A stretch of 64,000 bases of DNA, taken from contig KE159617.1 of NCBI GenBank assembly GCA_000403335.2, positions 671,757 to 735,756 on the forward strand. The letters run 5' to 3'. Shown here piece by piece: positions 8,618 to 37,758 of the stretch (position 1 is its first letter; each line of letters opens with the position of its first letter). A program made the translations under genes and the position numbers. This DNA comes from Lachnospiraceae bacterium MD335 (lineage in GTDB: Bacteria > Bacillota > Clostridia > Lachnospirales > Lachnospiraceae). The notes beneath the pieces are model-generated. The model was not told the DNA's origin. It searched no databases and worked only from the letters and a program-made list of their open reading frames with translations.

Positions 8618-8640
8618 AGTCGTTTCGTTCCATTTGTCTG
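8618..8640 (+). promoter_or_regulatory. Putative LytTR-type operator (box shared with 57.77 kb)
   Basis: The sequence TAGTCGTTTCGT followed by TCCATTTGTCT recurs almost unchanged upstream of the pectate lyase gene at 57770-57791, with one gap and about 20 of 23 positions identical. It contains CGTTTCGTTC, which resembles the CCGTTCGTC site bound by the LytTR regulator AlgR. Here it sits about 60 bases before a LytTR gene, which suggests autoregulation. The binding assignment is an inference. Confidence 0.45.
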
Positions 8641-8666
8641 AAAAAAATTTTTTTTTAACCGATATA
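8638..8666 (+). promoter_or_regulatory. Candidate sigma-28 (flagellar) type promoter
   Basis: CTGAAA, then about 14 bases, then ACCGATAT gives a fair match to the motility sigma factor consensus (CTAAA, 14-16 bases, GCCGATAT). The same TTAACCGATATA string occurs at 37021-37031 before another unknown protein. A housekeeping -10 (TATAAT, 8663-8668) overlaps, so sigma-A use cannot be excluded. Confidence 0.4.
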
Positions 8667-8701
8667 ATAAACAACAGTCCATATGGGGGAGGTGATAAGC
8701 T

Positions 8702-9100
8702 TTGGACGGGATTGTCGGCGGCGACAAAAGAATGACAGAAAAAACCGACAAAAAGGACGAAAGGAGGAAGCTGTTTATCAGGACGAAAAAGCTCATGCTC
8801 GATCAGGCGGATATTCTGTATGTTGAGAGCAGGGCGAAAAAAGTAGAAATACACACTATGGGAGCACAGCAAAACATAGAAATTTATGCGACAATGGAAG
8901 AGCTTATGGAGCAGCTCGGAGAAGGCTTTTACCGGTGTCATCGGGCATATATTGTGAATATGGCGTATATTGCGGAATATGGCGAAGGCAGCGCAATCCT
9001 TACGAGCGGCGATAGGGTCTATGTTGCAAAGAAGAAATTTGGAGAGTTTGTGAAGGCGTATAAGCGTTATTTGGAAAATGGCGGGGTTTCCAGCGTGTAA
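8702..9100 (+). CDS. Stand-alone LytTR DNA-binding protein
   Basis: A 132-residue protein that is essentially one LytTR domain: DQADILYVESRAKKVEIHT, the GFYRCHRAYIVNMAYI core and a C-terminal VAKKKFGEFVKAYKRYL. There is no receiver or membrane domain. The TTG start at 8702 is chosen because a near-perfect GGAGGTGAT lies 6 bases before it; ATG 8732 is an alternative. It heads a run of four unknown genes, so it may control them or respond with them. A putative LytTR-type box lies just upstream. Confidence 0.88.
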   Translation: MDGIVGGDKRMTEKTDKKDERRKLFIRTKKLMLDQADILYVESRAKKVEIHTMGAQQNIEIYATMEELMEQLGEGFYRCHRAYIVNMAYIAEYGEGSAILTSGDRVYVAKKKFGEFVKAYKRYLENGGVSSV

Positions 9101-9245
9101 AACGATATGGTTTACCCAACATATGTCCGGACTTATTGCAAGAGGGCATAGGCGGCTCTGACTGACAGAGGAGCTGCCAACAAAAACAAGGACAAACGTT
9201 ATACAAAAAGCACAAATTCGCTCATTTTAGAAAGGAGCTTAAAAA

Positions 9246-9797
9246 GTGGGAATTAACGGAATTGGTGCGGCAGGTTATCCGGTGATGGGATATGGGAATA
9301 CAAGACAGGCAAGGAAAAACGAGGCAGAAACGGCATTTTCGGATATATTGAACAATACGGCAGCGGCGGCGCCGCATACGTCTATTGTTTATTTAAAGAC
9401 AGACGACATGCTGTATTCGGGCGGGAACGGTACAGGGCTGTCGTTCTATATCAAGTATGCCCCAAATTCGACAGACGAAGATCCGACGGTTGTCGCGAAA
9501 GGCGTTGACGAGAACGGGAAAGAGTTTGAGCAGACGATACATATCAACGACATTAATCCGCAGCACGCATCGGTAGTGGAAATGCACGCGCTGGAGGCGT
9601 ATTTGGACGTGGACAAAAACGGAGGACTGTCCTCTCTTCCAATGGAAACGGGAATGATGGGACTGCATGACAGGGCGGATTTTATGGGGTTGTTTGAAAA
9701 ACAGATTAGCGATATGACACTGCTTAAGCAGCAAAAAACAGCGGCGTATTATCGACAGAGTATGCAGGCATTTTGGGACTTTATGGACAGGAAGTAA
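9246..9797 (+). CDS. Unknown Lachnospiraceae-type protein A
   Basis: A 183-residue soluble protein with a GTG start 7 bases after AAAGGAG. It has no signal peptide and no membrane helix. The N-terminus is small-residue rich (MGINGIGAAGYPVMGYGN), followed by a beta-rich centre (YIKYAPNSTDEDPTVVAKGVDENGKEFE), a short HINDINPQHAS motif and a helical end finishing FWDFMDRK. It is a paralogue of the next gene, sharing the central DExGxxxE strand pair, the xDPxxxxxxxM block and the WDF ending. I recall such proteins as frequent but uncharacterised in Lachnospiraceae. First of four tandem unknown genes behind a LytTR regulator. Confidence 0.75.
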   Translation: MGINGIGAAGYPVMGYGNTRQARKNEAETAFSDILNNTAAAAPHTSIVYLKTDDMLYSGGNGTGLSFYIKYAPNSTDEDPTVVAKGVDENGKEFEQTIHINDINPQHASVVEMHALEAYLDVDKNGGLSSLPMETGMMGLHDRADFMGLFEKQISDMTLLKQQKTAAYYRQSMQAFWDFMDRK

Positions 9798-9868
9798 ACT
9801 GGTTTATGATAAGGAAGTTAGAAGGTGCTGACAGATAGCGAAACTGTTGGCAGAAATGGAGGATAAAA

Positions 9869-10459
9869 ATGAGTATGAATATTAATACAAACATGATGAC
9901 AGCGTATTTTCCCAAAGCGGGATACAAGATGGGGATAGAGAAGAAGAAATTAAGCGGAACAAAGGATGCAGAACATACATTCGCAGAGGCGCAGAAAACG
10001 CAGAACGCAGGCGGCGGTTTTGTTCTTCACATTTCCAATGAGCAGGACGGGGAGGCAATCGGCGCGATGTGCGGCGCGGATCATTCGGTGACGGTTTATA
10101 AGCCGAAGGATTTTGACGCGGCAAATCCTGTATATAAAGTGAAGATTTGGGACGAGGACGGAAACGCGACGGAGCGCATGGTGGACGTGTCGAAGGTTGA
10201 CCCGCGAAACAGCGATTATATTGATATGTTTGCGTATTCCAGCCATTTGACAGCGACTGGAAAATGCCCCAATGCGCAGTCTGCGTTCACGTCATCAGCG
10301 ATGAATCAGCATGGAATGGACGAAACAGGCTATCAGGATTTGTTTCAGCAGAGGAATTGGGTAAACCAGTTGGCAGATGCGATGCAGACACAGTATGCGG
10401 CAGGAAATATTGAAGGATACTTGCATTATAAGCCGTTTTGGGACTTTTTGACGAAATAA
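9869..10459 (+). CDS. Unknown Lachnospiraceae-type protein B, paralogue of A
   Basis: A 196-residue soluble protein; ATG 9869 follows GGAGG by 7 bases. It begins MSMNINTNMMTAYFPKAGY, with no signal peptide, and continues with a basic linker, a beta-rich region (VYKVKIWDEDGNATERMVDVSKVDP) and a helical end (YLHYKPFWDFLTK). It aligns by layout with the preceding protein, so the two are tandem duplicates that have diverged. The short Asn-rich, Tyr-containing N-terminus resembles unstructured flagellar export signals, but this is only a visual resemblance. Confidence 0.75.
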   Translation: MSMNINTNMMTAYFPKAGYKMGIEKKKLSGTKDAEHTFAEAQKTQNAGGGFVLHISNEQDGEAIGAMCGADHSVTVYKPKDFDAANPVYKVKIWDEDGNATERMVDVSKVDPRNSDYIDMFAYSSHLTATGKCPNAQSAFTSSAMNQHGMDETGYQDLFQQRNWVNQLADAMQTQYAAGNIEGYLHYKPFWDFLTK

Positions 10460-10480
10460 GACAGGGGGAGGCAGGAGGTA

Positions 10481-11218
10481 ATGCATATTACAGTAAATAA
10501 CTATTTTAATACAACGTCGGCTGCTTATCGGCAAAATTTCCCCCCAAAATTATGCAAAACAGATAGCGAGGGAACTCTTCGATTTAATCGGGAGCTGATT
10601 GAAGCAGAATCGGCAAATCTGTCGTCTTTTGTTGGAAAGGTTTATACAAAGGAAGAGCTGATGCAGTCCGTAGAACAGCAGGTGCAGAGAAATCAAGGCA
10701 AAAAGCTGCCTTTGGAGGAAATGAAAAAATGTTCAAGCAGTATAGATAACGGTGTTTCCGATGACGAAGAGCAGGTAACAATCTCAGCGGAAGAAGGTCT
10801 GCAAACATGGTATGAGGGCAGAACGCTGGCGGAATGGGCATTGACAGACCCGCAATATACGGATTCCGAAACAGGTTTTTCATGGTATGTCCGCGACGGA
10901 AAGCACCCTTATATGGTAGGAAAAGATGCGGAAAAGTTTAAGGAAATGTGTCAGGAAACAGGAGAATCCTGGTTAAAAAAATTTGCGGAAATGACGGGTA
11001 TGATACAGTATCTTGACGACAATACGGTTGCTTATGTGGGAACGAATGGCATTGCGGTGAAATCAAAGGACGGAAAAGAGTTGTCTGTCGATACATCGTC
11101 ATTAACCTATGACATGATTCAGAGCCTGCTTCAGAATATGCGCGGTGGAGGGAATTATTTTGACAGCCAACATTGGCAGGAAGCAATTCAAAAAATAAAA
11201 TACAATGCAGTATCGTGA
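10481..11218 (+). CDS. Unknown Lachnospiraceae-type protein C
   Basis: A 245-residue soluble protein. ATG 10481 is preceded by GGGGGAGG at 9 bases and AGGAGG at 2 bases. The N-terminus MHITVNNYFNTTSAAY is again short, Asn/Tyr/Thr-rich and lacks a hydrophobic core. Further on are a helix (YTKEELMQSVEQQVQR), an acidic middle (DNGVSDDEEQVTISAEEG) and a C-terminal region with TWYEGRTLAEWALTDPQY and DDNTVAYVGTNGIAV. I do not recognise the fold. It is third in the tandem run, 21 bases after the previous gene and 27 before the next, so the four are very likely co-transcribed. Confidence 0.72.
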   Translation: MHITVNNYFNTTSAAYRQNFPPKLCKTDSEGTLRFNRELIEAESANLSSFVGKVYTKEELMQSVEQQVQRNQGKKLPLEEMKKCSSSIDNGVSDDEEQVTISAEEGLQTWYEGRTLAEWALTDPQYTDSETGFSWYVRDGKHPYMVGKDAEKFKEMCQETGESWLKKFAEMTGMIQYLDDNTVAYVGTNGIAVKSKDGKELSVDTSSLTYDMIQSLLQNMRGGGNYFDSQHWQEAIQKIKYNAVS

Positions 11219-11245
11219 AAAACGGAAGGTTTGCGTGGAGGTGAC

Positions 11246-12286
11246 ATGGGCACAAGTATGAATGTTCAAATAAATCATTTTCAAAGCATTTACGGAAAAA
11301 TGGCAGTATCGCAAAAAAGACAGCAAAAGCAATCCGAAACGCTTTCGCAGAAAACAGATAGCCTGCAAGACAATGCATATTCGCCTGCAAAGACGGGAAA
11401 CACGCTTTCTCCGTATCACGCATTTGAAAGAATGAAAAATGCAGGTCCAAAGAGTAGGACATACAATCTCAAGATGCAGGCAAAAGGGACGCTTCGAGAG
11501 GTCGAAAATGACCGGTATTTGATTGAAAAGTCCGACGAAATCGAAGGATATTGGCGCATATACGACAAGCAGTTTGACAAAACGTTTATGTTTGATCCGA
11601 GTAACACAACGCTACAGACAGATAAAAATACGAAGCAATATTATCTGATGGCGGACGGTCCGATTGGCGGACTGATGGATGCGATACCCGCTGATGCTAA
11701 GTTAAGGAGTGCGTTATCGCAGTTCCTGAATGTGGAAAGCGCGGACAGTATTTTGCCGGTGTCTTTAAATGACAAATATACAATTACGGTTGACGCATTT
11801 ACGGGGATTGAGTGCCTGCAAGTCAAGGGAAACGAGGGGAATGGTTCTTGGCTTATGATTCGTGATGAACAGCAGTTGGAAAAGCTGCAGGAGCTGGCGG
11901 ATATTTATAAAAAGAAGTATCCCAATCTTGTAAAAACGGACGGTGTGGCGATGGGCTTTGCACAGTCAGAAGTGGCAGGATTTTCGGTTCGAACGGAAAA
12001 CGGCATTTTGTCGATTGCATGTAACGGAATGGAGTACATGGACGATGCCGATCCGTCAAAAAGCTGGGCTGTCCACTATTCGGGGACTGATGGAAATATG
12101 TATATGGAAATCATGAATGCGATGGCGGAAGGCTATATTGTCGGGAAGGATATCGAGGATTATTCGGCTTGGGAGAAGTACTTTGAAAAGAAGGGACTGG
12201 AGTTTGTCAAAGTTTTGTCAGATGAAGAGATAGAGGCGCTTGAAAACTCTTTGACAGCGGAGCAATTGGCGGCGCTTACAGGGTAA
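11246..12286 (+). CDS. Unknown Lachnospiraceae-type protein D
   Basis: A 346-residue soluble protein, last of the tandem run. GGAGG (11237-11241) precedes ATG 11246 by only 4 bases; ATG 11258 and an upstream TTG at 11231 are alternatives. The N-terminus (MNVQINHFQSIYGKMA) resembles the start of FlgM-like flagellar export substrates of Clostridia. The middle contains repeated beta segments (YWRIYDKQFDKTFMFD, YTITVDAFTGIECLQVKG). The C-terminus is helical and ends EEIEALENSLTAEQLAALTG. No catalytic motif is visible. A strong terminator follows. Confidence 0.72.
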   Translation: MGTSMNVQINHFQSIYGKMAVSQKRQQKQSETLSQKTDSLQDNAYSPAKTGNTLSPYHAFERMKNAGPKSRTYNLKMQAKGTLREVENDRYLIEKSDEIEGYWRIYDKQFDKTFMFDPSNTTLQTDKNTKQYYLMADGPIGGLMDAIPADAKLRSALSQFLNVESADSILPVSLNDKYTITVDAFTGIECLQVKGNEGNGSWLMIRDEQQLEKLQELADIYKKKYPNLVKTDGVAMGFAQSEVAGFSVRTENGILSIACNGMEYMDDADPSKSWAVHYSGTDGNMYMEIMNAMAEGYIVGKDIEDYSAWEKYFEKKGLEFVKVLSDEEIEALENSLTAEQLAALTG

Positions 12287-12335
12287 TATCCGGTTTCGGA
12301 GAGTGATTTGCCAAATCCATTAATACTACAGTCAG

Positions 12336-12381
12336 GCTGCCGCTTCACGAATTTTCCTTCGTTAAAGCGACAGCTTTTTTT
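12336..12381 (+). terminator. Rho-independent terminator of the unknown-protein operon
   Basis: GCTGCCGCTT-ACGAA pairs with TTCGT-AAGCGACAGC around a short loop and is followed by seven T residues. It lies 50 bases after the last gene of the LytTR-linked run and closes that operon. Confidence 0.85.
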
Positions 12382-12508: not shown

Positions 12509-14380
12509 GTGGAACATCAATCGGAAACGCTCGTAAAAAGGCGGAAATGGAAAAACAGGCTGAGCATTGCGGCAGTCATTGCCGTGACAGCAGCCATTGC
12601 AATGATCAGCATCGGCAATTACATCAACACAAGAACAACAGACACAGGGCAAGCGGAGGATGAATTTGCGCCTCCGGAAGGCTTTGGCGGCGATAAGGGT
12701 GCGGTAATGGCAACCGGAACGACGTCTGTCGGTGTGAATGCCGTCACGTTTGACATTGATTTTTTAGAGGACGCCAATCTGTATGTGGAGGAAGTCTATC
12801 TGTCGAACGGCGACAGCGTTCAGGCAGGAGATAAGTATCTCAAATTTACAGATGCAAGCATCGCCGACGCAAGGACGGAGCTTGAGGAAGCGGCTTTGAG
12901 TGCGGAGCTTGCATACCGCAGCGGTATCCTGTCCGACGGCGAGAGCAAATTACAGGCAAAATATGAGTATGACACGGCAATGCTGGAAGCGCAGTATGCG
13001 CAGCAGGTTTATGAGGATACGCTTGCACAGCTCGAGGCGGATTATGCGCAGGCAAAAAAGGAGTATGACGCGGCACAGCAGGAATATGACGATTACCTTG
13101 AGAAGGTGCAGAATAACTCTTTTTATGAAGAATATGACATTGAAAATCTGAAAAAAGCGTATGAGGAGGCATACGATTTATACATAGACCGAAAAAAATA
13201 CTATGAAGTAACCGATGACGAACTGAAAAACAACAGTAATAACAATAATAATAACGGCAATAACAGCGGTGGCGGAAGTAACAGCGCCGAAAGCATGGAA
13301 CCGGCAGCCCTTATGACGCTGAGCGGCTCCGCAGGCGGGACGGGAGACGGCAAAGAATCAGAATCGCAGAAAACGGAAACAGAAGAACCCACAAAAACAG
13401 AAGACACTGCGCAAACAGAACCAACGACAGACACTGATACAACCGACAATCCGGAAACTGACACAGACACCGATGCAACCGATAATCCGGAAACAGAACA
13501 AAAACCGTCCGCGCCAAACGGCGGTGAAAGACCGAAGGGATTTGGCGACGCGGCACGGCAGGAGGAGCAAAATGCCAAAAAGGACAGGGAATGGATTGTA
13601 AAGACCGTCAGTCTTTTGGAACAGGAAACGCAGGACGCAAAGACCGCCTATACGACGGCGCTTGAGGAGTACGAAGACGAAATTTCATCAGCGGAATTAA
13701 ACCTTCAAAAGCTGCTCAACCAGCTTGAAACAGCGAGAGAGGACTACACGGACGCAGATGTATCCTATCAGAAACAAACGTTATCTGCCAAGACAGCTTA
13801 TGAGCTGTCCGTTGCAAAGGGGCAGACGGCGCAGAATGATTATCAGACGCAGCTTACGGGGCTTGCGGACAGTCTTGAAAGGCTGCAGGACGAAAAAGAG
13901 GAGGCAGCCGGTAATCTTGCCCTGTTTGAGGAGCTTGTGGGAGACGGATATTTATATACGCAGGAGGGCGGAACGGTACTGATGCTGATGGCGCAGGAGG
14001 GGCGAAGCCTTGCGGGAGGCAGCATGATATTTGCTTACAGTAATCCCAAGCAGCTATCCGTATCCGTGTCCGTAAGCCAAAATGACATCGCGAAGCTGTC
14101 TGTCGGGGAAAAAGCGACCGTTCTAATCGAAGAGCACGGCAGCTATAGCGGTATCATCGAAACGATTAATCCGGTATCCGCATCAAACAGCCGAACGTCG
14201 GTGACCTATACCGTGACTGTAAACCTGCAGGGAGATGTCAGCGGTTTAGAGGCAAATTTGACGGCAAATGTGATATTTGGAGAAGTGGCAAATAGGGACG
14301 GTGAACCATTCAACAAAAAGGAGGGGGAGCATGGACAGTCAGGAAAAGCAGACGAAAAAGCGCATGACAGGGAAAACTAA
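12509..14380 (+). CDS. HlyD/MacA-type efflux adaptor 1, with low-complexity insertion
   Basis: A 623-residue membrane-fusion-type adaptor. It has an N-terminal membrane anchor (about 13-32), a lipoyl/beta segment (NLYVEEVYLSNGDSVQAGDKYLKF), long coiled coils (about 115-235 and 360-470), a second half-lipoyl segment (VGDGYLYTQEGGTVLML) and a beta barrel. Between the coils lies a hydrophilic insertion: a run of Asn/Gly/Ser and then about 70 residues of Thr/Asp/Glu/Pro repeats (TDTDTTDNPETDTDT). The start is GTG 12509. The end is odd: after the barrel it has a charged tail and lacks the membrane-proximal domain present in the next two adaptors. It overlaps the following gene by 50 bases. Confidence 0.88.
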   Translation: MEHQSETLVKRRKWKNRLSIAAVIAVTAAIAMISIGNYINTRTTDTGQAEDEFAPPEGFGGDKGAVMATGTTSVGVNAVTFDIDFLEDANLYVEEVYLSNGDSVQAGDKYLKFTDASIADARTELEEAALSAELAYRSGILSDGESKLQAKYEYDTAMLEAQYAQQVYEDTLAQLEADYAQAKKEYDAAQQEYDDYLEKVQNNSFYEEYDIENLKKAYEEAYDLYIDRKKYYEVTDDELKNNSNNNNNNGNNSGGGSNSAESMEPAALMTLSGSAGGTGDGKESESQKTETEEPTKTEDTAQTEPTTDTDTTDNPETDTDTDATDNPETEQKPSAPNGGERPKGFGDAARQEEQNAKKDREWIVKTVSLLEQETQDAKTAYTTALEEYEDEISSAELNLQKLLNQLETAREDYTDADVSYQKQTLSAKTAYELSVAKGQTAQNDYQTQLTGLADSLERLQDEKEEAAGNLALFEELVGDGYLYTQEGGTVLMLMAQEGRSLAGGSMIFAYSNPKQLSVSVSVSQNDIAKLSVGEKATVLIEEHGSYSGIIETINPVSASNSRTSVTYTVTVNLQGDVSGLEANLTANVIFGEVANRDGEPFNKKEGEHGQSGKADEKAHDREN

Positions 14381-15965
14381 AAAAACGGCGGCGCTTCTGT
14401 CAGCGGTGATAGCAGTCGTCATTGCGGCTGCGTGTTACACACTTTTTATCAAGCCCACGCGCAATGCCCCACAGTGGAAATATGATGTGTATACCGTGCA
14501 GAAGGGTACCTTAAAAAACGGCGTGACAGAAAGCGGCACGGTAGAGCTTGGCATTACGTCGCAGGTCTATGACCTTGATGTATCGACCGAAAGCGATGAT
14601 GACGACGATGACGAGGAGGAAGAGGAAACCTATTTAAAAGTGGAGAAGGTTTATGCGGTTGTCGGGCAGCGGGTTCAAGAGGGCGACAAAGTATATCAAT
14701 TTACCAAGGACAGCATCAACTCGGTGCGTAAAGCCCTCACCTACGAGAAAACGCAGGCGCAGCTTGCCCTTGCTTCGGCGCAGACCGAATATGAAATCGG
14801 CGTGCTCGAGGCGGAGCTTTCCCGCACGGAAACACTGCTTGACACGTCACTGGCACAGACCTCATACGATACCGCAATTGCACGGCTTTCCAACAATCTG
14901 TCGGCAAAAAGCCTTGAGATACAACAGCTTTTAAAGGACATCTATAAGATGCAGTGCGACCTGACGGACGAGGATTATTTGGACGAAAAGTCGGACATCA
15001 TGGAGGCGTATGAGGACGCCATAGACGCGGTGGAAGACGCCAGTGAGGATTTTGTCACAAACAGGGTGGACGCGGCGCAGGCGCTGCAGTCAGCCAAGTC
15101 CTCCTATGACCGTTTTTTTGAGCAGTTTGACGAGACGAACCAACAGATACAGGATAACATCGACCGGATTTATGAAATCGAGGAGGAGATTGTATACAAT
15201 CAGCAGCTTCTTGAAAAAGAGCTTTTGAAGGCAAATCAGGAGTTAGAGACTTCCAATGTCAGCGGCGCCATTGCCGACGTGAAATATCAAAGCAGCCTTA
15301 CAGGCTACGAGAACGCCTTGTCTAAGGCGCAGCGGACGCTTGAGGAAGCGCAGGAAAAGCTGGACGCGTTTGAAGCGTTTGTGGGCGACGGAACGGTTTG
15401 TGCTGAGGGAAGCGGTATCGTCACGGAAATCGGGTATGAGGAAGGCGATTACCTAAAGAATACCGGAACGCTGATTGCGTTTGCAAAGGCGGAGGAAATG
15501 ACGGTTTCGGTAGATGTGTCGCAGGAGGACGTCGTTGACATCAAGGTGGGCGATACTGTGGAATTAAGCATGTCCGCATATGAAGGGGAGATTTATGAGG
15601 GCGTTGTCGCGTCCATAACCACGATTGCTACAAGCAGGAACGCAGCCACAATCAGCTATCCTGTCGTGATTTCCATATTGGGGGATACCTCCAAGCTCTA
15701 CGGAGGAATGACGGCAGATGTGAAATTTGTCACGCAGGAGGTGCAGGACGTTACATATGTGCTGCGCAAGGCGGTAGTCACGGAAAACGGCAAAAGCTGT
15801 CTGTATGTAAAATCAGGGGCGGATTATACGCTTGTGCCCATAACGACAGGATTTAACAACGGGGAGTATGTTGAGGTTTTGGAAGGCATTTGCGAGGGAG
15901 AGGAATATTATCTAAAAACGCAGGTGATTGAAGGAGGGGCAGATGAAAAATCACATGAAAAATAA
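14331..15965 (+). CDS. HlyD/MacA-type efflux adaptor 2
   Basis: A 544-residue adaptor. ATG 14331 is chosen because GGAGGGGG lies directly upstream; the frame also extends to a TTG at 14277 without a site. It has an N-terminal anchor (AALLSAVIAVVIAAACYTLFI), a lipoyl segment interrupted by an acidic run of Asp and Glu (SDDDDDDEEEEE), coiled coil at about 125-345, a second lipoyl half (VGDGTVCAEGSGIVTEIGYEEGDYL), a beta barrel and a membrane-proximal domain (VLRKAVVTENGKSCLYVK). In Gram-positive bacteria such adaptors link an ABC permease to substrates at the cell surface. Overlaps with both neighbours imply one operon. Confidence 0.9.
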   Translation: MDSQEKQTKKRMTGKTKKTAALLSAVIAVVIAAACYTLFIKPTRNAPQWKYDVYTVQKGTLKNGVTESGTVELGITSQVYDLDVSTESDDDDDDEEEEETYLKVEKVYAVVGQRVQEGDKVYQFTKDSINSVRKALTYEKTQAQLALASAQTEYEIGVLEAELSRTETLLDTSLAQTSYDTAIARLSNNLSAKSLEIQQLLKDIYKMQCDLTDEDYLDEKSDIMEAYEDAIDAVEDASEDFVTNRVDAAQALQSAKSSYDRFFEQFDETNQQIQDNIDRIYEIEEEIVYNQQLLEKELLKANQELETSNVSGAIADVKYQSSLTGYENALSKAQRTLEEAQEKLDAFEAFVGDGTVCAEGSGIVTEIGYEEGDYLKNTGTLIAFAKAEEMTVSVDVSQEDVVDIKVGDTVELSMSAYEGEIYEGVVASITTIATSRNAATISYPVVISILGDTSKLYGGMTADVKFVTQEVQDVTYVLRKAVVTENGKSCLYVKSGADYTLVPITTGFNNGEYVEVLEGICEGEEYYLKTQVIEGGADEKSHEK

Positions 15966-17622
15966 CAAAAAGCTTCTGATTGGCATTGGGACTGTCGCCG
16001 CGGCAGGCATCGTGATTATCTGCATCGGTCTGGCAGTGCGCCGCGGCGGGAAAGATTCGGTGGTGTACAGGGAAACGGCGGTGGAATACGGAAATCTGAC
16101 GGTCGGTATCACCGAGGAAGCGGCGGTGGAAATCGGCACCTTGGAGCAGACGTTTGACTTGGACATCAGTGCACTTGTGGACAGTGACACGTCATCGGAT
16201 AATCAGACGACTGGCGCGATGCCTTTTGGTGGAGACATGGGCGGAGGCGCTATGGGTGCAGGCATGATGTCTTTTGGCTCGTTTGATATGACGCAGCGTT
16301 CCCAAAGCCAGTCGCTCACAGTGGAGCAGGTAAACGCGGCGGTAGGACAGGAAATCAAGGAGGGCGATGCGCTTTATACGCTGACAGCGGAAAGTGTGGA
16401 GGAAATCAGGGATACGCTTTCCGAGGACATCGCGGATACCAAGTCGGATTATGAGGCGCTGCAGGTGGAACAGGAAGCGTCAAGAACGCAGGCGCGGCAA
16501 GGATATGACACCTATGTCACAAATGGAAAATACGCGCAGCTCATTTATGAGGAGGAGCTAAAGGCATATCAGGAGGCGGTGGAGGACGCGGCGGAAGCAG
16601 TCAACGACAAACAGGATACCTATAATGAAAAGTGTTTGGAGCTGACCGCGCTCTCCGAGGAGCTTGCGCAGGCACAGGATTTTCTGAAGGAGGCGCAGGC
16701 TGCGGTTTCGGAAAATTATGCGGGACGGTATGAAAATGCCTATTATTACACGGTGTATCTCAATACGCGGGATACGGCGCAAAAGTTAGCGGACCAGCTT
16801 GAGGAAGAATTTGACGATTTGAGTGAGGAAATTGAGCAGCTATCGGTTGAAATCCAAACGGCAGTCCGCACGATGAACCAGTCGCAGCGCGACTATGAAC
16901 AGGCAAAGCTTGATTTTGGAAAGACGTATGATACGGATACTTATTATGCCAATGCGGCGTCGGAATGGTACGGCATTCAGACGCAGAGTTTGGACAATGC
17001 GCTCTCGTCCGCAAAAAACAGCTATGATATGGCAGTCGAAAAGCTTGCGGAGTTTGACAGCGTCGTGCAGGATAACAGGATTGTTTCCGAATATAGCGGC
17101 GTTGTGACGCAGGTGGCGCTTAGCGAAGGGGATACGCTGTCAGGGGGCAGCAGTCTTTTGGTGATGAATGACTGGGAAAGCGTGACAATGGACGTGGCGC
17201 TTAGCGAGGAGGATTATAATACAATCGAAAAGGGGCGTGCAGTCAATATCGCCTTTACGGCATATCCTGACGCGGTGTATTCCGGCATCATAACGGACGT
17301 GTCGGACGCGGAATATGACAGCAGTACGGGGGCGGTTTATTACACGGTGACCGTGACGGTGCAAGGGGACGTGTCGGGATTGTATGCGGGAATGACAGGC
17401 GATGTGACATTTGTGACAAACGAAACGAAGGAGGTCTGCTATGTGTCCAACCGGGCGATTATCAGGGAGGGGGTAACCTCTTACGTCAAGGTGCGTGATG
17501 ACAGCGGGGCTGTCAGAAAACAGGAGGTTGTCACCGGATTTTCGGACGGCGTTTGTGTGGAAATCGTGGAGGGGCTTTCGGAAGGGGATACTGTTTTAAT
17601 CGAAAGCAAGGTTGAAAATTAA
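15943..17622 (+). CDS. HlyD/MacA-type efflux adaptor 3, with Gly/Met-rich insertion
   Basis: A 559-residue adaptor paralogous to adaptor 2 in order: anchor (about 10-30), first lipoyl half (TFDLDISALV), long coiled coil (about 145-375), second lipoyl half (SEYSGVVTQVALSEGDTL), beta barrel and membrane-proximal domain (NRAIIREGVTSYVKV). At the place where adaptor 2 carries its acidic run, this protein has a Gly/Met-rich insert (MPFGGDMGGGAMGAGMMSFG). ATG 15943 follows GGAGGGG and overlaps adaptor 2 by 23 bases. Three consecutive adaptors for one permease are unusual; they may form a mixed assembly. Confidence 0.9.
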   Translation: MKNHMKNNKKLLIGIGTVAAAGIVIICIGLAVRRGGKDSVVYRETAVEYGNLTVGITEEAAVEIGTLEQTFDLDISALVDSDTSSDNQTTGAMPFGGDMGGGAMGAGMMSFGSFDMTQRSQSQSLTVEQVNAAVGQEIKEGDALYTLTAESVEEIRDTLSEDIADTKSDYEALQVEQEASRTQARQGYDTYVTNGKYAQLIYEEELKAYQEAVEDAAEAVNDKQDTYNEKCLELTALSEELAQAQDFLKEAQAAVSENYAGRYENAYYYTVYLNTRDTAQKLADQLEEEFDDLSEEIEQLSVEIQTAVRTMNQSQRDYEQAKLDFGKTYDTDTYYANAASEWYGIQTQSLDNALSSAKNSYDMAVEKLAEFDSVVQDNRIVSEYSGVVTQVALSEGDTLSGGSSLLVMNDWESVTMDVALSEEDYNTIEKGRAVNIAFTAYPDAVYSGIITDVSDAEYDSSTGAVYYTVTVTVQGDVSGLYAGMTGDVTFVTNETKEVCYVSNRAIIREGVTSYVKVRDDSGAVRKQEVVTGFSDGVCVEIVEGLSEGDTVLIESKVEN

Positions 17623-17694
17623 CATTTTCAACCTGACAAGTTTGTGCTTAGCCGCACAAACTTGCAGGCTAAGAAAGGAGTACGGTTTATAATC

Positions 17695-19041
17695 ATGAAA
17701 ATCTCAGAATTATTAAGACTTGTTATCATAAACCTTTCCCAAAATAAATTTAAGGTGATTCTCACTTCGGTCGGAATTATTGTGGGCTCAGCGACAATTA
17801 TGATGGTGCTTGCCATAGGAACGGGCGGAAAGTTGGAGGTTGCTGAGCAGTTCAAAAACTTAAACGCGGGTGCGATTGACATTTCGTATGAATCCAATGC
17901 CGCCTCGTTTGGCGAACGGGGAGAGAGAATGTTTCAAGGCGGTGGGGGAATGCCCGGCGCAGGAATGTCCGGAGGGGGAGCAAGAGGCGGAATGCCCGGC
18001 GCAGGAATGCCGCCCTCAGGAGATTTTTTTGGCGGACGGGACAGAGACAATGAGCGCATGAATCAGGAAAAGATTGTGTTGTCCACGGACGATATGGAGG
18101 ATATTGCGGTATTTGTGCCGGATATTTCTGATGTGACCATATCGTATACGACGTCGTCTGAGGTGGAAGGCGGAGAGCTTGAGGAGGCGCAGGCGTATAC
18201 CATTGCGGGCGTTAAAGAAAATTATGGCACAATGAGCAATCTGTCAATGGCGGCGGGAACGTTTTTGACACAGGAAAACGATGAAAATAAGGAAAAATAC
18301 TGTGTGCTTGGCTATTCCGCGGCAAAGGAGATTTTCGGAAGCGTTTATGCCGCGTATGATGATGTAATTTATATTGATGCAAGACCCTATGTGGTGAGCG
18401 GCGTGCTGGAAGAAATGGGGAGTGTTTCATCGGGTATCAGTCCTGACACGACGGTATTTATCCCTTATGAGACGGGTGTAAAGTATATTACGGGGACGAA
18501 TATCAGTCCGACGGTTACGGTGATAGCCGCCGATGTCAATCAGGTGGATACGGTGATAAGCAATATTGAAACAGTTTTGGCTGACAGCTATGCCAATGCG
18601 GAATTTACGATTTCCGATGCGGGGACAAAAATGGAGGCGGCATCGAAGTCAAACGATACGCTGCAGCTCTTGCTGATTGCAATGGCGGTGATTGTGTTTC
18701 TTGTCGGCGGTATCGGCATTATGAACGTGCTGTTCGTGTCCGTCAAGGAGCGGACAAATGAAATCGGTATCCTCAAGGCGCTTGGCTGTTCGAAACGGGA
18801 TATTCTTTTGGAGTTTCTGTTTGAGGCGTGCTTTATGAGCTTTATCGGCTCCGTGCTCGGCGTGCTCGCCGCGTTTAGCATTACGCCGGTGATTGAGGGC
18901 TTTTCGGTCAGAGTGGAGCTGTCTGTTTTGGGGGCGGTTTTGTCGCTGGCGTTTGGCGTGGTTACGGGGACGGTTTTCGGATTTTATCCCGCGTATAAGG
19001 CAGCGTCGCTGATTCCTGTTGCGGCGTTAAATCAGGAATAG
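17695..19041 (+). CDS. MacB-type ABC transporter permease
   Basis: A 448-residue permease of the MacB/FtsX class. It has an N-terminal transmembrane helix (ILTSVGIIVGSATIMMVLAIG), a large extracellular MacB-core domain (about 50-315) and three C-terminal transmembrane helices (LLLIAMAVIVFLVGGIGIMNVLFV and following) with the conserved KERTNEIGILKALGCSKRDI coupling loop. The extracellular domain contains a Gly/Met-rich insertion in which GGMPGAGM-type units repeat (about residues 83-112), echoing the insert of adaptor 3. ATG 17695 with AAAGGAG 14 bases upstream is the likely start; the frame is open from 17644. MacB-type proteins transmit ATPase motion mechanically rather than forming a classical channel. 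Confidence 0.92.
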   Translation: MKISELLRLVIINLSQNKFKVILTSVGIIVGSATIMMVLAIGTGGKLEVAEQFKNLNAGAIDISYESNAASFGERGERMFQGGGGMPGAGMSGGGARGGMPGAGMPPSGDFFGGRDRDNERMNQEKIVLSTDDMEDIAVFVPDISDVTISYTTSSEVEGGELEEAQAYTIAGVKENYGTMSNLSMAAGTFLTQENDENKEKYCVLGYSAAKEIFGSVYAAYDDVIYIDARPYVVSGVLEEMGSVSSGISPDTTVFIPYETGVKYITGTNISPTVTVIAADVNQVDTVISNIETVLADSYANAEFTISDAGTKMEAASKSNDTLQLLLIAMAVIVFLVGGIGIMNVLFVSVKERTNEIGILKALGCSKRDILLEFLFEACFMSFIGSVLGVLAAFSITPVIEGFSVRVELSVLGAVLSLAFGVVTGTVFGFYPAYKAASLIPVAALNQE

Positions 19042-19059
19042 TCGGAAAGGAGTAGGGGT

Positions 19060-19464
19060 ATGGCGAAAAAGTATATTGTGCTCTTGGCGGTGGTCTTTCT
19101 TGCGGTGGCAGGAGTGGGAACGTGCGTTCTTCGGCAAAAACATGTTTTGGCGGCGCAGGAGAAGCAGGAGCCTGTTTTGGAGAACGGGCAGTCGCTTCGG
19201 TATGCAAAAATTACGTCCATTTCGGGCAATGAAATGCAGTATGCGGTATTGGAGCCGCAGACACAGACGCAGGATAAGACAGGCGCCTATGCGGAAACGG
19301 ACGAAACAGGACAAATGCAGATTCCCGTAGGGACGCAGGTAGAAACAAAGCTTGGGACGGTCACGACATTTTCGCGTCTTGCGGGCGGCGACCGTATCAA
19401 GATGCTTTTGCAAAAAGACGACAGCGGCAGCGACGTGCTGTTAAAAATATGGATTGTGGAATAG
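19060..19464 (+). CDS. Small anchored or secreted protein of the efflux operon
   Basis: A 134-residue protein with an N-terminal hydrophobic segment (YIVLLAVVFLAVAGVGTCV) that may be a signal anchor, followed by an extracellular beta-rich domain (RYAKITSISGNEMQYAVLE, IPVGTQVETKLGTVTTFSRLAGGDRIKMLL). It lies between permease and ATPase genes with short gaps, so it is co-expressed and probably an accessory part of the transporter. No family is recognised. The cysteine at the end of the hydrophobic segment is not in a good lipobox. Confidence 0.7.
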   Translation: MAKKYIVLLAVVFLAVAGVGTCVLRQKHVLAAQEKQEPVLENGQSLRYAKITSISGNEMQYAVLEPQTQTQDKTGAYAETDETGQMQIPVGTQVETKLGTVTTFSRLAGGDRIKMLLQKDDSGSDVLLKIWIVE

Positions 19465-19474
19465 GAGGCGTCCG

Positions 19475-20167
19475 GTGGAAGAAAAAATCATTGAAATCAA
19501 GGCGGTCAATAAGGGGTATCAACTCGGTGATGATACGGTTCCTGTTTTAAAGGATATTGATTTTACGGTGAAAAAGGGCGAGTTTGTAGCTATTTTGGGA
19601 CCGTCGGGTTCAGGAAAAACAACGCTTATGAACATTATCGGCTGCATGGACTTGCTGGATTCGGGCGAATATTATCTAAACGGCAGGGCAATCCATGAAA
19701 AGAAGGAAAGCGAACTGACACAGGTGCGCAATCAGGAGATTGGGTTTATTTTTCAAAATTATCAGCTCATACCGACGTATAACGTCATGCAGAATATTAT
19801 CATGCCCCTGCTGATACGCGGAATGGGGCACAGGGAGGCAAAAAAGAAATGCAGTGAGATTGTGAAGCTTTTGGGCATTGCGCACAGACTGGACCACAAG
19901 CCAAACGAACTTTCGGGTGGTCAGAAACAGCGGGTATCCATTGCGCGGGCTTTGGCGAGCGAGCCCGCAATCCTCCTTGCCGATGAGCCGACAGGCGCGC
20001 TTGACAGCGCAAGCGGACAGGAGGTATTAAAGCTGTTTGACAATCTCAACCGATTGGGCAATACGATTGTCATGATTACGCACGACTTAAAGGTGGCAAA
20101 GGCGGCGCAGCGCATTGTGCGGATTGAGGACGGGTGTCTGATTGAAAAACATCTAAACGCTCAATGA
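19475..20167 (+). CDS. ABC transporter ATP-binding protein (MacB/LolD type)
   Basis: A 230-residue ATPase with Walker A GPSGSGKTTL, Q-loop FQNYQLIPTYN, signature LSGGQKQRVSIARAL, Walker B ILLADEPTGALD and H-loop ITHDLKVA. This is the LolD/MacB-like group that pairs with FtsX-type permeases. GTG 19475 is chosen because AGGAGG lies 6 bases upstream; the frame extends to an ATG at 19454 that lies inside the previous gene. It is the last gene of the operon. It energises the three-adaptor transporter; the cargo (peptide, macrolide, lipid or metal) cannot be told. Confidence 0.94.
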   Translation: MEEKIIEIKAVNKGYQLGDDTVPVLKDIDFTVKKGEFVAILGPSGSGKTTLMNIIGCMDLLDSGEYYLNGRAIHEKKESELTQVRNQEIGFIFQNYQLIPTYNVMQNIIMPLLIRGMGHREAKKKCSEIVKLLGIAHRLDHKPNELSGGQKQRVSIARALASEPAILLADEPTGALDSASGQEVLKLFDNLNRLGNTIVMITHDLKVAKAAQRIVRIEDGCLIEKHLNAQ

Positions 20168-26971: not shown

Positions 26972-27535
26972 TCATTTATCTGATTGCTGCTTTGTCTCAA
27001 TGAAATTAGAGCGGCGCAAAGCGGTAACGACAGGCTTATACACTAGCATTGTAATTGCCGCATTCAGTCCTCCTTTAATTACATTAAATGGCAAAAAAGC
27101 CGAAAATAACAATTCCATAATCGCTTCTCTAGGATAATTCATGTAAAGAGGCGCAATCAGATAGTTCCAAATCATCATGACGACAACCTGACATCCCCAA
27201 CCGCAGCAAAGTCCCAGTATGGCACCGGACAGCGAATGTTTCTTTTTGTAGAAGAATGCGGCAGGACACGAAAAGGCGCAGCTTGAAATAATATTCATTA
27301 TGCAGCCCCAAATTCCCGTTGCGCTTGTCGTGAACATTTGTATTATGGAAACAATTATTGTAATGGAAAAGGAAGTTAGCGGACCGAAAATAAATCCTCC
27401 GATGACAATGATAATGTCTTTGGGATCATACTTTAGAAAAAGTACGAGCGGGATGCGCCCGACTACTGCTGCGACATAAGCAAATGCGCATAGCATACTA
27501 ATTGTAGTGAGTTTTTTTGTTTTTTTGATATTCAT
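26972..27535 (-). CDS. ribU: Riboflavin ECF transporter, substrate-binding subunit RibU
   Basis: A 187-residue hydrophobic protein with about five to six transmembrane helices. The KYDPKDIIIVIGGFIFGP motif is typical of RibU S-components of energy-coupling-factor transporters, which bind riboflavin and work with a shared EcfAAT module encoded elsewhere. The decisive context is the FMN riboswitch in its leader on the same strand. ATG 27535 is preceded by AGGAGG at 7 bases, and that ribosome binding site lies directly behind a terminator hairpin, so both transcription and ribosome access could be controlled by FMN. Confidence 0.92.
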   Translation of the reverse strand: MNIKKTKKLTTISMLCAFAYVAAVVGRIPLVLFLKYDPKDIIIVIGGFIFGPLTSFSITIIVSIIQMFTTSATGIWGCIMNIISSCAFSCPAAFFYKKKHSLSGAILGLCCGWGCQVVVMMIWNYLIAPLYMNYPREAIMELLFSAFLPFNVIKGGLNAAITMLVYKPVVTALRRSNFIETKQQSDK

Positions 27536-27550
27536 TGGAATACCTCCTCG

Positions 27551-27596
27551 TAAAAAAATTAACACTTGAAAGACCGCAGTGCCTCTCAGGTGTTAA
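27551..27596 (-). terminator. Riboswitch-controlled terminator before ribU
   Basis: On the minus strand AACACCTGA...TCAAGTGTT forms a stem followed by AATTTTTTTA, ending 3 bases before the AGGAGG of ribU. Position and shape fit the expression platform of the upstream FMN riboswitch. Confidence 0.75.
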
Positions 27597-27683: not shown

Positions 27684-27803
27684 AATACACCTTCTTTAAT
27701 CCGGACTATACCGTCGGTTTTGGAATTTCACCAAACCCCGCGCTTTCGCGCCCGCGGACTATAACCGCCGATCGGGAATTTCACCCTGCCCTGAAGACAT
27801 TAC
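27684..27803 (-). promoter_or_regulatory. FMN riboswitch (RFN element)
   Basis: Read on the minus strand, the leader contains the conserved RFN blocks in order: CTTCAGGGCAGGGTGAAATTC, CCGATCGGCGGTTATAGTCC, GCG...CGC stem, GGTGAAATTCC, AACCGACGGTATAGTCCGGAT and a closing GAAGG. All six-helix landmarks are present. In bacteria FMN binding shuts off riboflavin transport or synthesis genes; here it governs ribU. Confidence 0.97.
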
Positions 27804-30340: not shown

Positions 30341-30588
30341 TGGAAAAGAAATTCAGAGGAGCTTGGGAAAAAGCGCGGCGCTGTCAAATCCGATTGAATA
30401 TCCCAACCCCTCTTCCACATGGGCAAGGCATCCGGCATGGAAATTGCAAGGCGTACCAGGGAACGGGAAGAGAGCGGCAGTTGAGGGGGCTTCGGCATGA
30501 TATGAGAAACCATTTATCCAGTATCGCATCGCTTGTCCGCACTCGAACGTTCACGCCCAAAATGGAGCATTTCGCGCCATATTTATAA
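30340..30588 (+). pseudogene. Remnant of a GHKL-type sensor kinase
   Basis: Within a short frame the sequence RERQLRGLRHDMRNHLSSIASLV is the H-box of AgrC/YcbB-like GHKL histidine kinases (RHDMxNHL). The membrane domain before it and the ATPase domain after it are missing; flanking codons look shifted. It is probably a relic of a larger deleted gene. Confidence 0.5.
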
Positions 30589-30659
30589 AATATTTGTGCA
30601 GATTGACGATAAAACAAATGAAAACTTTTTTGATAACAAAGAAAGGTCAGGTGTTTTAT

Positions 30660-31766
30660 ATGTCAATGGAAATCACAAACAATTACAGGAACTATGCAGC
30701 GAATTACGCTGATACCGCGAAAAAGACGGACAGCAAGGCGCAGGTAAAGGAAAACATATCAACAAACAGCAAAGACAAGGTGCAGGCATACTATGAACAG
30801 TTATGCAAGAAATTTCCACAGATAAAGATTAACGCAACTGGAGGAATTGTAAGCGGCAGTAAAAATAATATTGTTTTGAATCTTTCCAATGACTGCCTAA
30901 AAAAGATGGCAAGCGATCCGGATTTTGCAAAAAAAATAGAAAGTGACATTGCGGGTATACCAAAGGCGCATGAACAGATGTTTGCAAAAGCAAAAAGTGA
31001 CGGCATTGAAATACAAGGTTTTGCGGTAAGAATCAATGCGGACGGGAGTATGCAATGCTCATGCAGCGGTTCAACAAGAACCAGCGGCACAACACAAAAA
31101 ACAAGCGGCAAGAAAGATAAACAAAAAGAGCTTTTAGAAGAATCTTTTGAAAAATGGGTGCAGGTAAAAAAACAGCAGCAGGAAAGGTTGAATGAAAAGG
31201 TTGCGAAGCAGGAGAGAAACCGATTATCGAAAAACAGAGAAACTATAATAGACAGGATTGCGCATACGGTTATACCTTCTGTTACATCATTTAGCGACAC
31301 GAGGGCTGGAATATTGAAGGAAGTCGCAGAAGAAAAAGGGCAATATGATTACTCAGATGTTGTCAATGCCTGTGGTTTGAGCTATGCAAGGCTTTATTCC
31401 GCAATTGAGGAACGCTATAAAAATGAAAATGAGCAGTATTATAAGGCAGATGGGACCTTTCTGACAATGGAAGAAGAAATTGACTGGCTGAATATGCAAT
31501 ATGAGCAGGAAGTAAAGTGGCAGAAGTCTTGTGCCAAAATAGCAGCCGAAGGACAGGTTTTCACAGGACGTATCCCCAAAGTGCCAGTAAAGGAAATCGA
31601 GGAATTGGAAGACAGCTTGTATCAGGCGAAAGATGGATATATGAAGCTGCATCAGGAAAATAAGCAGTCAGGGAAACCGTCTGTTCTGCAAAGTTATATG
31701 TTTGGCAGTAAGCAAATGTATGAAATACTGAACAGATTAGGAAATTTACAGAGAAGTGTGAAATAA
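30660..31766 (+). CDS. DUF6033-like protein
   Basis: A 368-residue soluble protein. The N-terminus MSMEITNNYRNYAANYADTA, then VQAYYEQLCKKFPQIKINATGG, NNIVLNLSNDCLKKMASDPDFA, and a mid region AKSDGIEIQGFAVRINADGSMQ followed by a long basic coiled coil, correspond to what I recall as DUF6033, frequent and uncharacterised in Lachnospiraceae. There is no signal peptide. The Asn/Tyr-rich start is like those of the tandem unknown proteins at 9.2-12.3 kb. ATG 30660 has AAAGG about 13 bases upstream, slightly far. It is a single-gene unit with its own terminator. Confidence 0.7.
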   Translation: MSMEITNNYRNYAANYADTAKKTDSKAQVKENISTNSKDKVQAYYEQLCKKFPQIKINATGGIVSGSKNNIVLNLSNDCLKKMASDPDFAKKIESDIAGIPKAHEQMFAKAKSDGIEIQGFAVRINADGSMQCSCSGSTRTSGTTQKTSGKKDKQKELLEESFEKWVQVKKQQQERLNEKVAKQERNRLSKNRETIIDRIAHTVIPSVTSFSDTRAGILKEVAEEKGQYDYSDVVNACGLSYARLYSAIEERYKNENEQYYKADGTFLTMEEEIDWLNMQYEQEVKWQKSCAKIAAEGQVFTGRIPKVPVKEIEELEDSLYQAKDGYMKLHQENKQSGKPSVLQSYMFGSKQMYEILNRLGNLQRSVK

Positions 31767-32857: not shown

Positions 32858-33196
32858 TTAACGATAAATCGCTTTCGCGTCTGATAATAGTAAAATGTCA
32901 ACAGCCTTTTGCAGCTCTTCTCGTTCACGGTAGTGGCAGATAAGTTTTTTTTCGTGTTCCGAAAGTACAATCTGTGTATTAGCGGAATCTGCCTCCAGAA
33001 CGTTCTGCAGATTTTGAATGGTAATGTTTAACCCTCTGCATATTTTAATTACGTTATCAACTGACGCATTTCCGATTTTTTCCTCGTTTAACATTGTAAG
33101 CAATGTGGAATAAGGCATATGAATTTTTTTGGCGAAATCTTTGATTGTAAGTCCGTTCTCTTTGATGAGCTTTTTTAAATAGCTTTCTCTCGTCAT
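32858..33196 (-). CDS. XRE-family helix-turn-helix regulator
   Basis: A 112-residue DNA-binding protein on the minus strand. The helix-turn-helix spans about 5-65 (LIKENGLTIKDFAKKIHMPYSTLLTMLNEEKIGNASVDNVIKICRG), followed by a charged helical tail with SEHEKKLICHYREREELQKAVDILL. GGAGAGAAACGG lies upstream of the ATG. It is divergent from a second small HTH protein with a related recognition helix, and paired repeats lie in between, suggesting mutual control. Confidence 0.85.
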   Translation of the reverse strand: MTRESYLKKLIKENGLTIKDFAKKIHMPYSTLLTMLNEEKIGNASVDNVIKICRGLNITIQNLQNVLEADSANTQIVLSEHEKKLICHYREREELQKAVDILLLSDAKAIYR

Positions 33197-37002: not shown

Positions 37003-37031
37003 TTAATTTTGGAAAAACATTAACCGATATA
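37003..37031 (+). promoter_or_regulatory. Candidate sigma-28 (flagellar) type promoter
   Basis: GTTAA, 16 bases, ACCGATAT. The -10 block TTAACCGATATA is identical to that at 8655-8666 before the LytTR gene cluster. No competing sigma-A -10 box is visible here, which strengthens the reading. The leader to the gene at 37204 is about 165 bases and includes a small GCGCAC/GTGCGC hairpin. Confidence 0.5.
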
Positions 37032-37203: not shown

Positions 37204-37758
37204 ATGCAGGTAAAAGGTACAAACACCGCACTCCTAAACAGAGCTGCAACCGCAATCGAGAATTCCTATTCCGATTCGCAGGAAAAGCAGGAAGCAATCA
37301 GAGTGAACGCCGGCGCATTGGAGGAGAATGCGGAAAATGAAGAACAGTCGGTAATGTTGTCCATTTCGGCTGCCGGAAGAAAACGGAGCGAACTTTTAGC
37401 CAGTCAGCCGGAAAACGAAGGGGAAAAGAATGAATTTTCGAGCGAAGCAGAGCTGGAAGGGATGCTCAAGAAGATGGAAGGACTGTCAAGCCAAATCATC
37501 AACGGATATTTTTCAATTTCCGACAGACTGAATTTTAACAACGAGATACAAAGACTGAACACAGAGCTGAACAGATTAAACGGCGATGCCGTATCTGCCA
37601 CGAAGGATGACTGCGCGCAGCTGTCGAAGAGGATTTCGGATCTTACCAAGATTATCAGTGACGCGGCGGTTTACCGTCAGAGCGCAAGAAACGTGTTTAT
37701 GGTAAACTCAAAACAGCCCGCAAAGGCTGTGCGCACACAGCTTGATATTGCAATTTAG
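37204..37758 (+). CDS. Unknown coiled-coil protein with sigma-28-like promoter
   Basis: A 184-residue soluble helical protein. ATG 37204 follows AAAGGAG by 6 bases; the frame from 37093 lacks a site. The N-terminus MQVKGTNTALLNRAATAIENSYSD is short, polar and without a signal peptide. The C-terminal half is a coiled coil: SDRLNFNNEIQRLNTELNRLNGDAVSA, which faintly echoes the flagellin segment with repeated Leu-Asn and Ile-Asp helices. No family is recognised. The likely flagellar-type promoter and these features make an exported flagellar accessory protein possible; this is inference. Confidence 0.7.
   Translation: MQVKGTNTALLNRAATAIENSYSDSQEKQEAIRVNAGALEENAENEEQSVMLSISAAGRKRSELLASQPENEGEKNEFSSEAELEGMLKKMEGLSSQIINGYFSISDRLNFNNEIQRLNTELNRLNGDAVSATKDDCAQLSKRISDLTKIISDAAVYRQSARNVFMVNSKQPAKAVRTQLDIAI

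Follow-up and report, generated by a model that had tools for sequence, protein, structure and literature searches.

In the 64,000-nucleotide stretch of Lachnospiraceae bacterium MD335 analysed here (contig KE159617.1 of assembly GCA_000403335.2, positions 671,757 to 735,756 of the forward strand; hereafter the window), five consecutive plus-strand genes between 8702 and 12286, encoding a stand-alone LytTR DNA-binding protein and four soluble proteins outside Pfam, form what reads as an operon. We propose that this operon is a late, sigma-28 (FliA)-dependent unit of the flagellar regulon, the products of which are exported via the flagellar type III apparatus, a reading to which we give a probability of roughly 0.57. 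Its two components carry different weight, since co-regulation with the flagellum appears highly probable, and export through the flagellar route, once co-regulation is granted, is what we would expect with some confidence.

As delimited from sequence, the operon runs on the plus strand from a promoter-like site to a terminator-like hairpin. The putative promoter (8639..8665, +), which has the sigma-28-type form TGAA-N15-ACCGATAT, lies 36 nucleotides 5' of the TTG start of the LytTR gene and agrees with the consensus at 10 of 11 scored positions, a value reached by 5 of 500 shuffled versions of the 250 nucleotides before the gene, with a score of 8 on the reverse strand. The scoring takes the best site within 250 nucleotides upstream of a gene, using a consensus initially taken from Escherichia coli and Bacillus subtilis; the Butyrivibrio form comes from PMC3720852, where the printed reference for motile Butyrivibrio fibrisolvens, of the same cluster, is TAAA (-35) and MCGATAa (-10). 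The LytTR protein (8702..9100, +) has 132 residues from TTG 8702, which is preceded by a GGAGGTG box, or 122 from ATG 8732, and PF04397 is its sole family match (70.2 bits), no receiver domain being present. It is followed by open reading frame 2 (ORF2; 9246..9797, +; 183 residues from a GTG), ORF3 (9869..10459, +; 196 from ATG 9869), ORF4 (10481..11218, +; 245 from ATG 10481) and ORF5 (11246..12286, +; 346 from ATG 11246, or 342 from ATG 11258, the alternative beginning MNVQINHFQSIYG adopted in an earlier note on this DNA, hereafter the original prediction). The genes and sizes had thus been correctly recognised, as had the relationship of ORF2 to ORF3, distant paralogues with a BLASTP E of 1e-06 and 21% identity over 124 residues. 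The description of the genes as close-spaced fits the last three intergenic gaps (71, 21 and 27 nucleotides, from the coordinates) but is less true of the first, because this spans 145 nucleotides and folds, from 9100, into a stable leader hairpin (9101..9245, +; minimum free energy -31 kcal/mol, z -2.15). Downstream of ORF5, a hairpin followed by a T run (12334..12381, +; z -3.31 for 12334-12376) resembles a terminator but is absent from the list produced by a simple terminator scan. Control of the unit by sigma-70 was considered and set aside: a simple scan gave no plus-strand site before the LytTR gene, but a 10/12 site at 11173-11201, before ORF5.

Membership of the sigma-28 regulon is indicated by the site upstream of the unit and by the company it keeps. 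A score of at least 10 is reached by 4 of 57 window genes, three of which are the loci named in the original prediction (the LytTR unit, the gene at 30660 and the gene at 37204), in direct support of the "regulated set" first suggested. The gene at 30660 (30660..31766, +) encodes a DUF6033 protein of 368 residues (PF19498, 89.3 bits) with the polar start MSMEITNNYRNYAANY, behind a TAAA-N15-GACGATAA site (30586..30612, +; 10/11; 9 of 500 shuffles), and that at 37204 (37204..37758, +) a 184-residue protein with a polar start, an LSISAAGR stretch and no Pfam family at E <= 0.1, behind TAAT-N15-ACCGATAT (37004..37030, +; 10/11; 9 of 500 shuffles). That both proteins begin like those of the operon, as had been pointed out, is borne out by eye. 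The fourth gene scoring 10 (32858-33196, -), for a small protein that looks by eye like a helix-turn-helix regulator, may be there by chance.

The genome itself (4.96 Mb, 19 contigs) contains 55 occurrences of TAAA-N15/16-NCCGATAW, against 11 for the reversed control. Thirty of these 55 places were retrieved, 18 inside genes of more than 120 codons and 12 intergenic, the latter preceding, besides five other genes, those for FlgM, two flagellins, a protein that by eye is FlaG-like, two DUF6033 proteins and a 403-residue protein whose start is polar. In the retrieved loci of this genome, 9 of 342 genes reach a score of 10. The association extends to other genera, as DUF6033 genes have an upstream site scoring at least 10 in 20 of 40 cases, compared with 1/40 on the reverse strand and 0.2/40 after shuffling (40 of the 44 other genomes with DUF6033 were used; the weak matches of genomes G013, G015, G045 and G144 were left out). 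As for LytTR genes, the -10 core NCCGATA occurs within 120 nucleotides upstream of 22 of 41 (from the window, the genome and related loci) versus 41 of 1394 other genes, and still before 12 of 22 when similar upstream regions are removed.

The second line of evidence is co-occurrence with the flagellar export gene FlhA. The original prediction supposed that these families would accompany flagellar genes, and named homologues common in non-flagellated genomes as the finding that would speak against it. In 150 genomes of the family from 150 genera, including the window's own, FlhA is present in 82 and accompanies every genome with a relative of ORF2 (9/9) or ORF5 (6/6), the two operon ORFs used as queries, as well as every genome with DUF6033 (45/45) or DUF3879 (6/6), a family that was found in related islands and then tested as a prediction. 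The expected association is thus strongly borne out, and the contrary finding does not arise in this sample. With the window's genome excluded, Fisher's test gives p 1.2e-15 for DUF6033 (44/44), 0.0065 for ORF2 (8/8), 0.045 for ORF5 (5/5) and 2.2e-4 for ORF2 or ORF5 (13/13), values that are too small because the genomes are related. A class-wide sample of 291 genomes, 113 with FlhA, contains DUF6033 over the cut-off in 12, all FlhA-positive, and at E <= 0.001 in 15.

Scanning contigs with an ORF2 alignment produced 144 relatives, the best 80 loci of which were kept; many are titled Lachnospiraceae bacterium, and others belong to Eubacterium plexicaudatum ASF492, Lachnospiraceae 28-4, 10-1, 3-1 and A4, Sporofaciens musculi and Petralouisia muris, many of these strains being, to judge in part from their names, mouse-gut isolates. 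In the window's own genome, which has 28 LytTR matches, 18 of DUF6033, 7 ORF2-like and one each of FlhA and FlgM, and in several of the loci, the gene order is that of an island: a LytTR response regulator, a membrane kinase-like gene, then several proteins with polar starts. The relatives of the window LytTR protein that score highest in the loci are such response regulators (e.g., in locus L112, E 4e-50), so that the protein, the domain of which lies at C1:680548, may be a reduced form of them. Relatives of ORF2, ORF3 and ORF5 stand in a single run in locus L156, DUF6033 and DUF3879 proteins occur in islands of the window's genome, and a DUF4885 protein occurs in the related island L088. Contigs C16, C14 and C13 of this genome (G000) contain several closely similar islands with, by eye, recombinase- or transposase-like genes nearby, which suggests that the island repertoire spreads by duplication and with mobile elements. 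A link to agr-type quorum sensing was considered and set aside, the only AgrB match of the genome (C1:626744) being about 53 kb from the LytTR domain.

Two other kinds of element were encountered along the way. A near-invariant 27-nucleotide sequence with the sigma-28 consensus, TAAAGTTTTTCGCC[AT]TTCGTCCGATAT, occurs with close variants at eight places in the genome, seven of which were read (L034:18186, L035:7629, L037:7099, L040:784, L043:14934, L044:12293 and L044:3111). It is generally directed away from an adjacent response-regulator sequence, and the conserved block behind it has no evident ORF; together they are a candidate for a sigma-28-driven small RNA. Sigma-28-dependent small RNAs are reported from Campylobacter (PMC4626219). 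Two genes for BlaI-like regulators (by eye; L041:11451-11867, -, and L050:1517-1921, +) have sigma-28-type sites upstream (score 10) and precede runs that include proteins with polar starts.

The third line of evidence is an N-terminal module common to otherwise different proteins. In gene lists from a home-made caller with a ribosome-site filter, which also served for the counts of the module, of FxxxPhi and of promoters before window, island and LytTR genes, a polar start is found in 131 of 374 other genes near ORF2 or ORF3 relatives and in 30 of 515 farther off. A strict form, M-x(1,2)-[IV]-x-G-[IV], is present in 194 of 336 polar-start proteins versus 15 of 1115 others, and those 15 are, by eye, island-type proteins again. 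ORF2 itself begins with a version of the module (MGINGIGAAGYP...). A start resembling MxVNGIG...Y is carried by nine hand-picked bodies, and at E 0.01 no more than one pair of these is related; we rely on these nine because clustering of the bodies by single linkage left 172 and 101 of 331 in two very large groups that are probably over-merged. Conversely, ORF4 aligns with 53-56% identity to proteins of the islands whose starts are MxVNGIGQNYYQNN or MSISGIGQNYYQNN, and its own start differs. A start that recurs on different bodies, and a body that occurs with different starts, are what one would see with an interchangeable address tag.

The bodies offer few clues. ORF2-5 have no credible family in Pfam, NCBIfam or PHROGs and do not match PF19498; in Pfam at E <= 1 there are only sub-threshold hits, the best being ORF5 to Tsc35 (E 0.0096; 16 bits, where the cut-off is 27.7), and 1 of 15 ORF2-family members has a Spore_III_AF hit (E 0.005). 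AlphaFold models, built on shallow alignments of 15 sequences for ORF2 and 7 for ORF5, show alpha/beta bodies (mean predicted local distance difference test scores of 76 and 70) preceded by poorly modelled starts, residues 1-50 being of low confidence in ORF2 and residues 1-75 scoring under 50 in ORF5. Neither model matches a PDB entry at E <= 0.001, although weak or absent matches do not exclude a fold, and the best hits of a second structure comparison (Z 4.5 for ORF2, to 42 residues of Pur-alpha, and 3.1 for ORF5) were set aside. A hydropathy filter detects no hydrophobic N-terminal segment in ORF2, ORF3, ORF4 or ORF5. The picture originally drawn, of polar, disordered-like starts devoid of a signal peptide, is thus upheld by the low-confidence starts in the two models and by the filter in all four proteins. 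None of the papers searched mentions DUF6033 or DUF3879, and the matches listed, for most topics the top few only, showed nothing on these families.

Could the starts be read by the flagellar exporter? In early flagellar subunits, a small hydrophobic signal at the N-terminus is combined with a gate recognition motif at a distance of at least 19 residues; in FlgD the two are 2SIAV5 and 36FLTLL40 (PMC8983047). Small non-polar residues at about positions 3-7 and FxxxPhi some 30 residues in (FSDIL at residues 31-35 of ORF2, FNREL at 35-39 of ORF4), reminiscent of these substrates, can be made out, partly by eye, in ORF2 and ORF4 as well as in various island proteins. Within residues 20-50, FxxxPhi is present in 17 of 39 polar-start proteins (44%), compared with 5.7 +/- 2.2 in shuffles, none of 500 reaching 17, but it is also present in 60 of 191 control proteins (31%). 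These 39 proteins remain from 54, drawn from 393 genes, after similar ones were removed, and include two evident strangers (one recombinase-like, one PEBP-like) and two proteins of the flagellar cluster.

FlgM is itself an exported flagellar protein. ORF2-5 are like it in their short polar starts, and a sigma-28-type promoter precedes FlgM in the same genome. ORF2-5 have no PF04316 match at E <= 1, however, and the "FlgM-type" starts of the original prediction find no support as a position-by-position likeness. Lachnospiraceae FlgM starts are uniform, mostly MRIDAYNQI.Q.Y, and a matrix of 29 of them (one of 30 omitted, two trimmed to their MR- start) gives the six window proteins scores that do not exceed those of their shuffled versions (p 0.09-0.90), for which reason homology was rejected; pairwise comparison with the FlgM of the genome was marginal for two of the six (ORF5, p 0.018; 37204, p 0.032). 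As sets against control proteins, polar-start proteins and DUF6033 starts do score higher (areas under the curve of 0.74 and 0.90). Because the window starts fail the matrix, the sets exceed controls and few proteins beat their own shuffles, the resemblance is mainly one of composition.

Several observations weigh against the proposed reading and should be set beside it. On the side of regulation, the window promoters score 10 and not 11 of 11; NCCGATA is enriched before LytTR genes on the reverse strand too (9/41 versus 36/1394 for others); of the 41 LytTR genes, only that of the window has the strict full pattern on the same strand, while 11 have it on the opposite strand; and a LytTR relative was found in only 28 of the 80 related loci, many loci being broken by contig ends. 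On the side of co-occurrence, the control AgrB is also biased to FlhA-positive genomes (44/65; p 0.005 without the window's own), and part of the signal is therefore phylogeny or genome content; one weak DUF6033 match, below the cut-off, is in a genome lacking FlhA (G414). On the side of export, the N-terminal expression was composed after examples had been seen, no functional domain was detected in ORF2-5, FxxxPhi is common in control proteins and, judged by eye, is present in ORF2 and ORF4 but not in ORF3 or ORF5, a difference from early flagellar substrates, and the FlgM matrix beats own shuffles (at 0.05) for 0 of 39 polar-start proteins and 9 of 34 DUF6033 starts (34 of 40; the omission of G029, G047, G052, G096, G104 and G113 favours DUF6033).

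One alternative is that the operon belongs to the sigma-28 regulon but that its products never leave the cytosol, where they would serve the flagellar machine as modulators, chaperones or anti-sigma-like partners, their common start binding a cytosolic partner. We regard this as unlikely, but it is the alternative that survives best: co-regulation and co-occurrence fit it equally well, and neither the negative FlgM-matrix test nor an FxxxPhi frequency approached by control proteins pleads for export. What speaks for a targeting tag instead is that a similar module sits on unrelated bodies, that the modelled starts are of low confidence, and that the many paralogues in this one genome (7 ORF2-like, 18 DUF6033) look less like a chaperone family. 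Products that are exported but structural, as accessory filament, hook or cap parts coating the flagellum, would share all the evidence for export; we nevertheless find this improbable, given ORF2 and ORF5 models with no PDB match at the threshold above (which does not exclude a fold) and families that vary from genome to genome, ORF2 and ORF5 matches coinciding among the 150 genera in the window's own genome only. Most improbable of all is an indirect link, in which mobile LytTR/kinase islands merely happen to inhabit the motile branch, since, for all the recombinase- and transposase-like genes (by eye) around islands of this genome and the bias of AgrB, the DUF6033 count far exceeds that bias, holds class-wide for every genome over the cut-off, and comes with sigma-28-type promoters in many genera that host ancestry alone fails to explain.

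In our preferred reading, of a sigma-28-dependent unit with exported products, events would unfold as follows. In other bacteria, FlgM leaves the cell once the hook-basal body is complete. Here, with that structure finished and FlgM gone, free sigma-28 would use the promoter at 8639-8665 to transcribe the LytTR gene together with the four that follow. The LytTR protein would then tune the unit, an idea drawn from related islands, which often have a LytTR response regulator and a membrane kinase-like gene in that place. The four products would emerge with loosely structured starts bearing variants of the N-terminal module, which we take to address them to the flagellar type III apparatus for export, and would leave the cell via the flagellum, mainly to be released rather than built into it, their bodies presumably acting outside.

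Directly behind the operon, a run of genes (12509-20167) encodes three consecutive HlyD/MacA-like proteins (the first an HlyD_3 match, the others by eye), followed, again judged by eye, by a MacB-like permease with an ATPase, and looks like a separate efflux-type cluster. Control of the operon by a riboswitch was set aside, since at Rfam gathering scores the window and three island stretches yielded only an ordinary flavin mononucleotide riboswitch (27685-27802, -), upstream of a membrane protein gene (26972-27565).

The closest known parallel is found in Campylobacter, where the flagellar co-expressed determinants (Feds, Cia-type proteins) are non-flagellar proteins that are expressed alongside sigma-28 genes and that the flagellar apparatus secretes. 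The operon described here would likewise tie non-flagellar proteins to sigma-28 genes, with predicted export, and differs from the Feds in its Gram-positive host, its many paralogues in LytTR/kinase islands and its recurring N-terminal module on unrelated bodies. To our knowledge, most descriptions of flagellar secretion of non-flagellar proteins concern Gram-negative pathogens, although it has been discussed to some extent for Bacillus cereus. Tentatively, and with slightly less than even confidence, we suggest that motile gut Lachnospiraceae employ the flagellum as a secretion route of general use, for a large and rapidly changing non-flagellar repertoire, in which an interchangeable export module is joined to a variable body and the genes are held in LytTR/kinase- or BlaI-controlled islands under sigma-28.

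What this means for the biology of these bacteria is that promoter sequence and strict co-occurrence now link unnamed protein families of Gram-positive gut commensals, in many genera, to the flagellar regulon. Function-unknown families that share the window or the islands, i.e., DUF6033, DUF3879 and DUF4885 (PF19498, PF12995 and PF16226), none of which is matched by ORF2-5, thereby gain a testable context. If the proteins are exported, motile commensals hold an unrecognised protein set facing the host and neighbouring microbes, and their recurring start would provide natural examples from which to learn which signals a Gram-positive flagellar exporter recognises.

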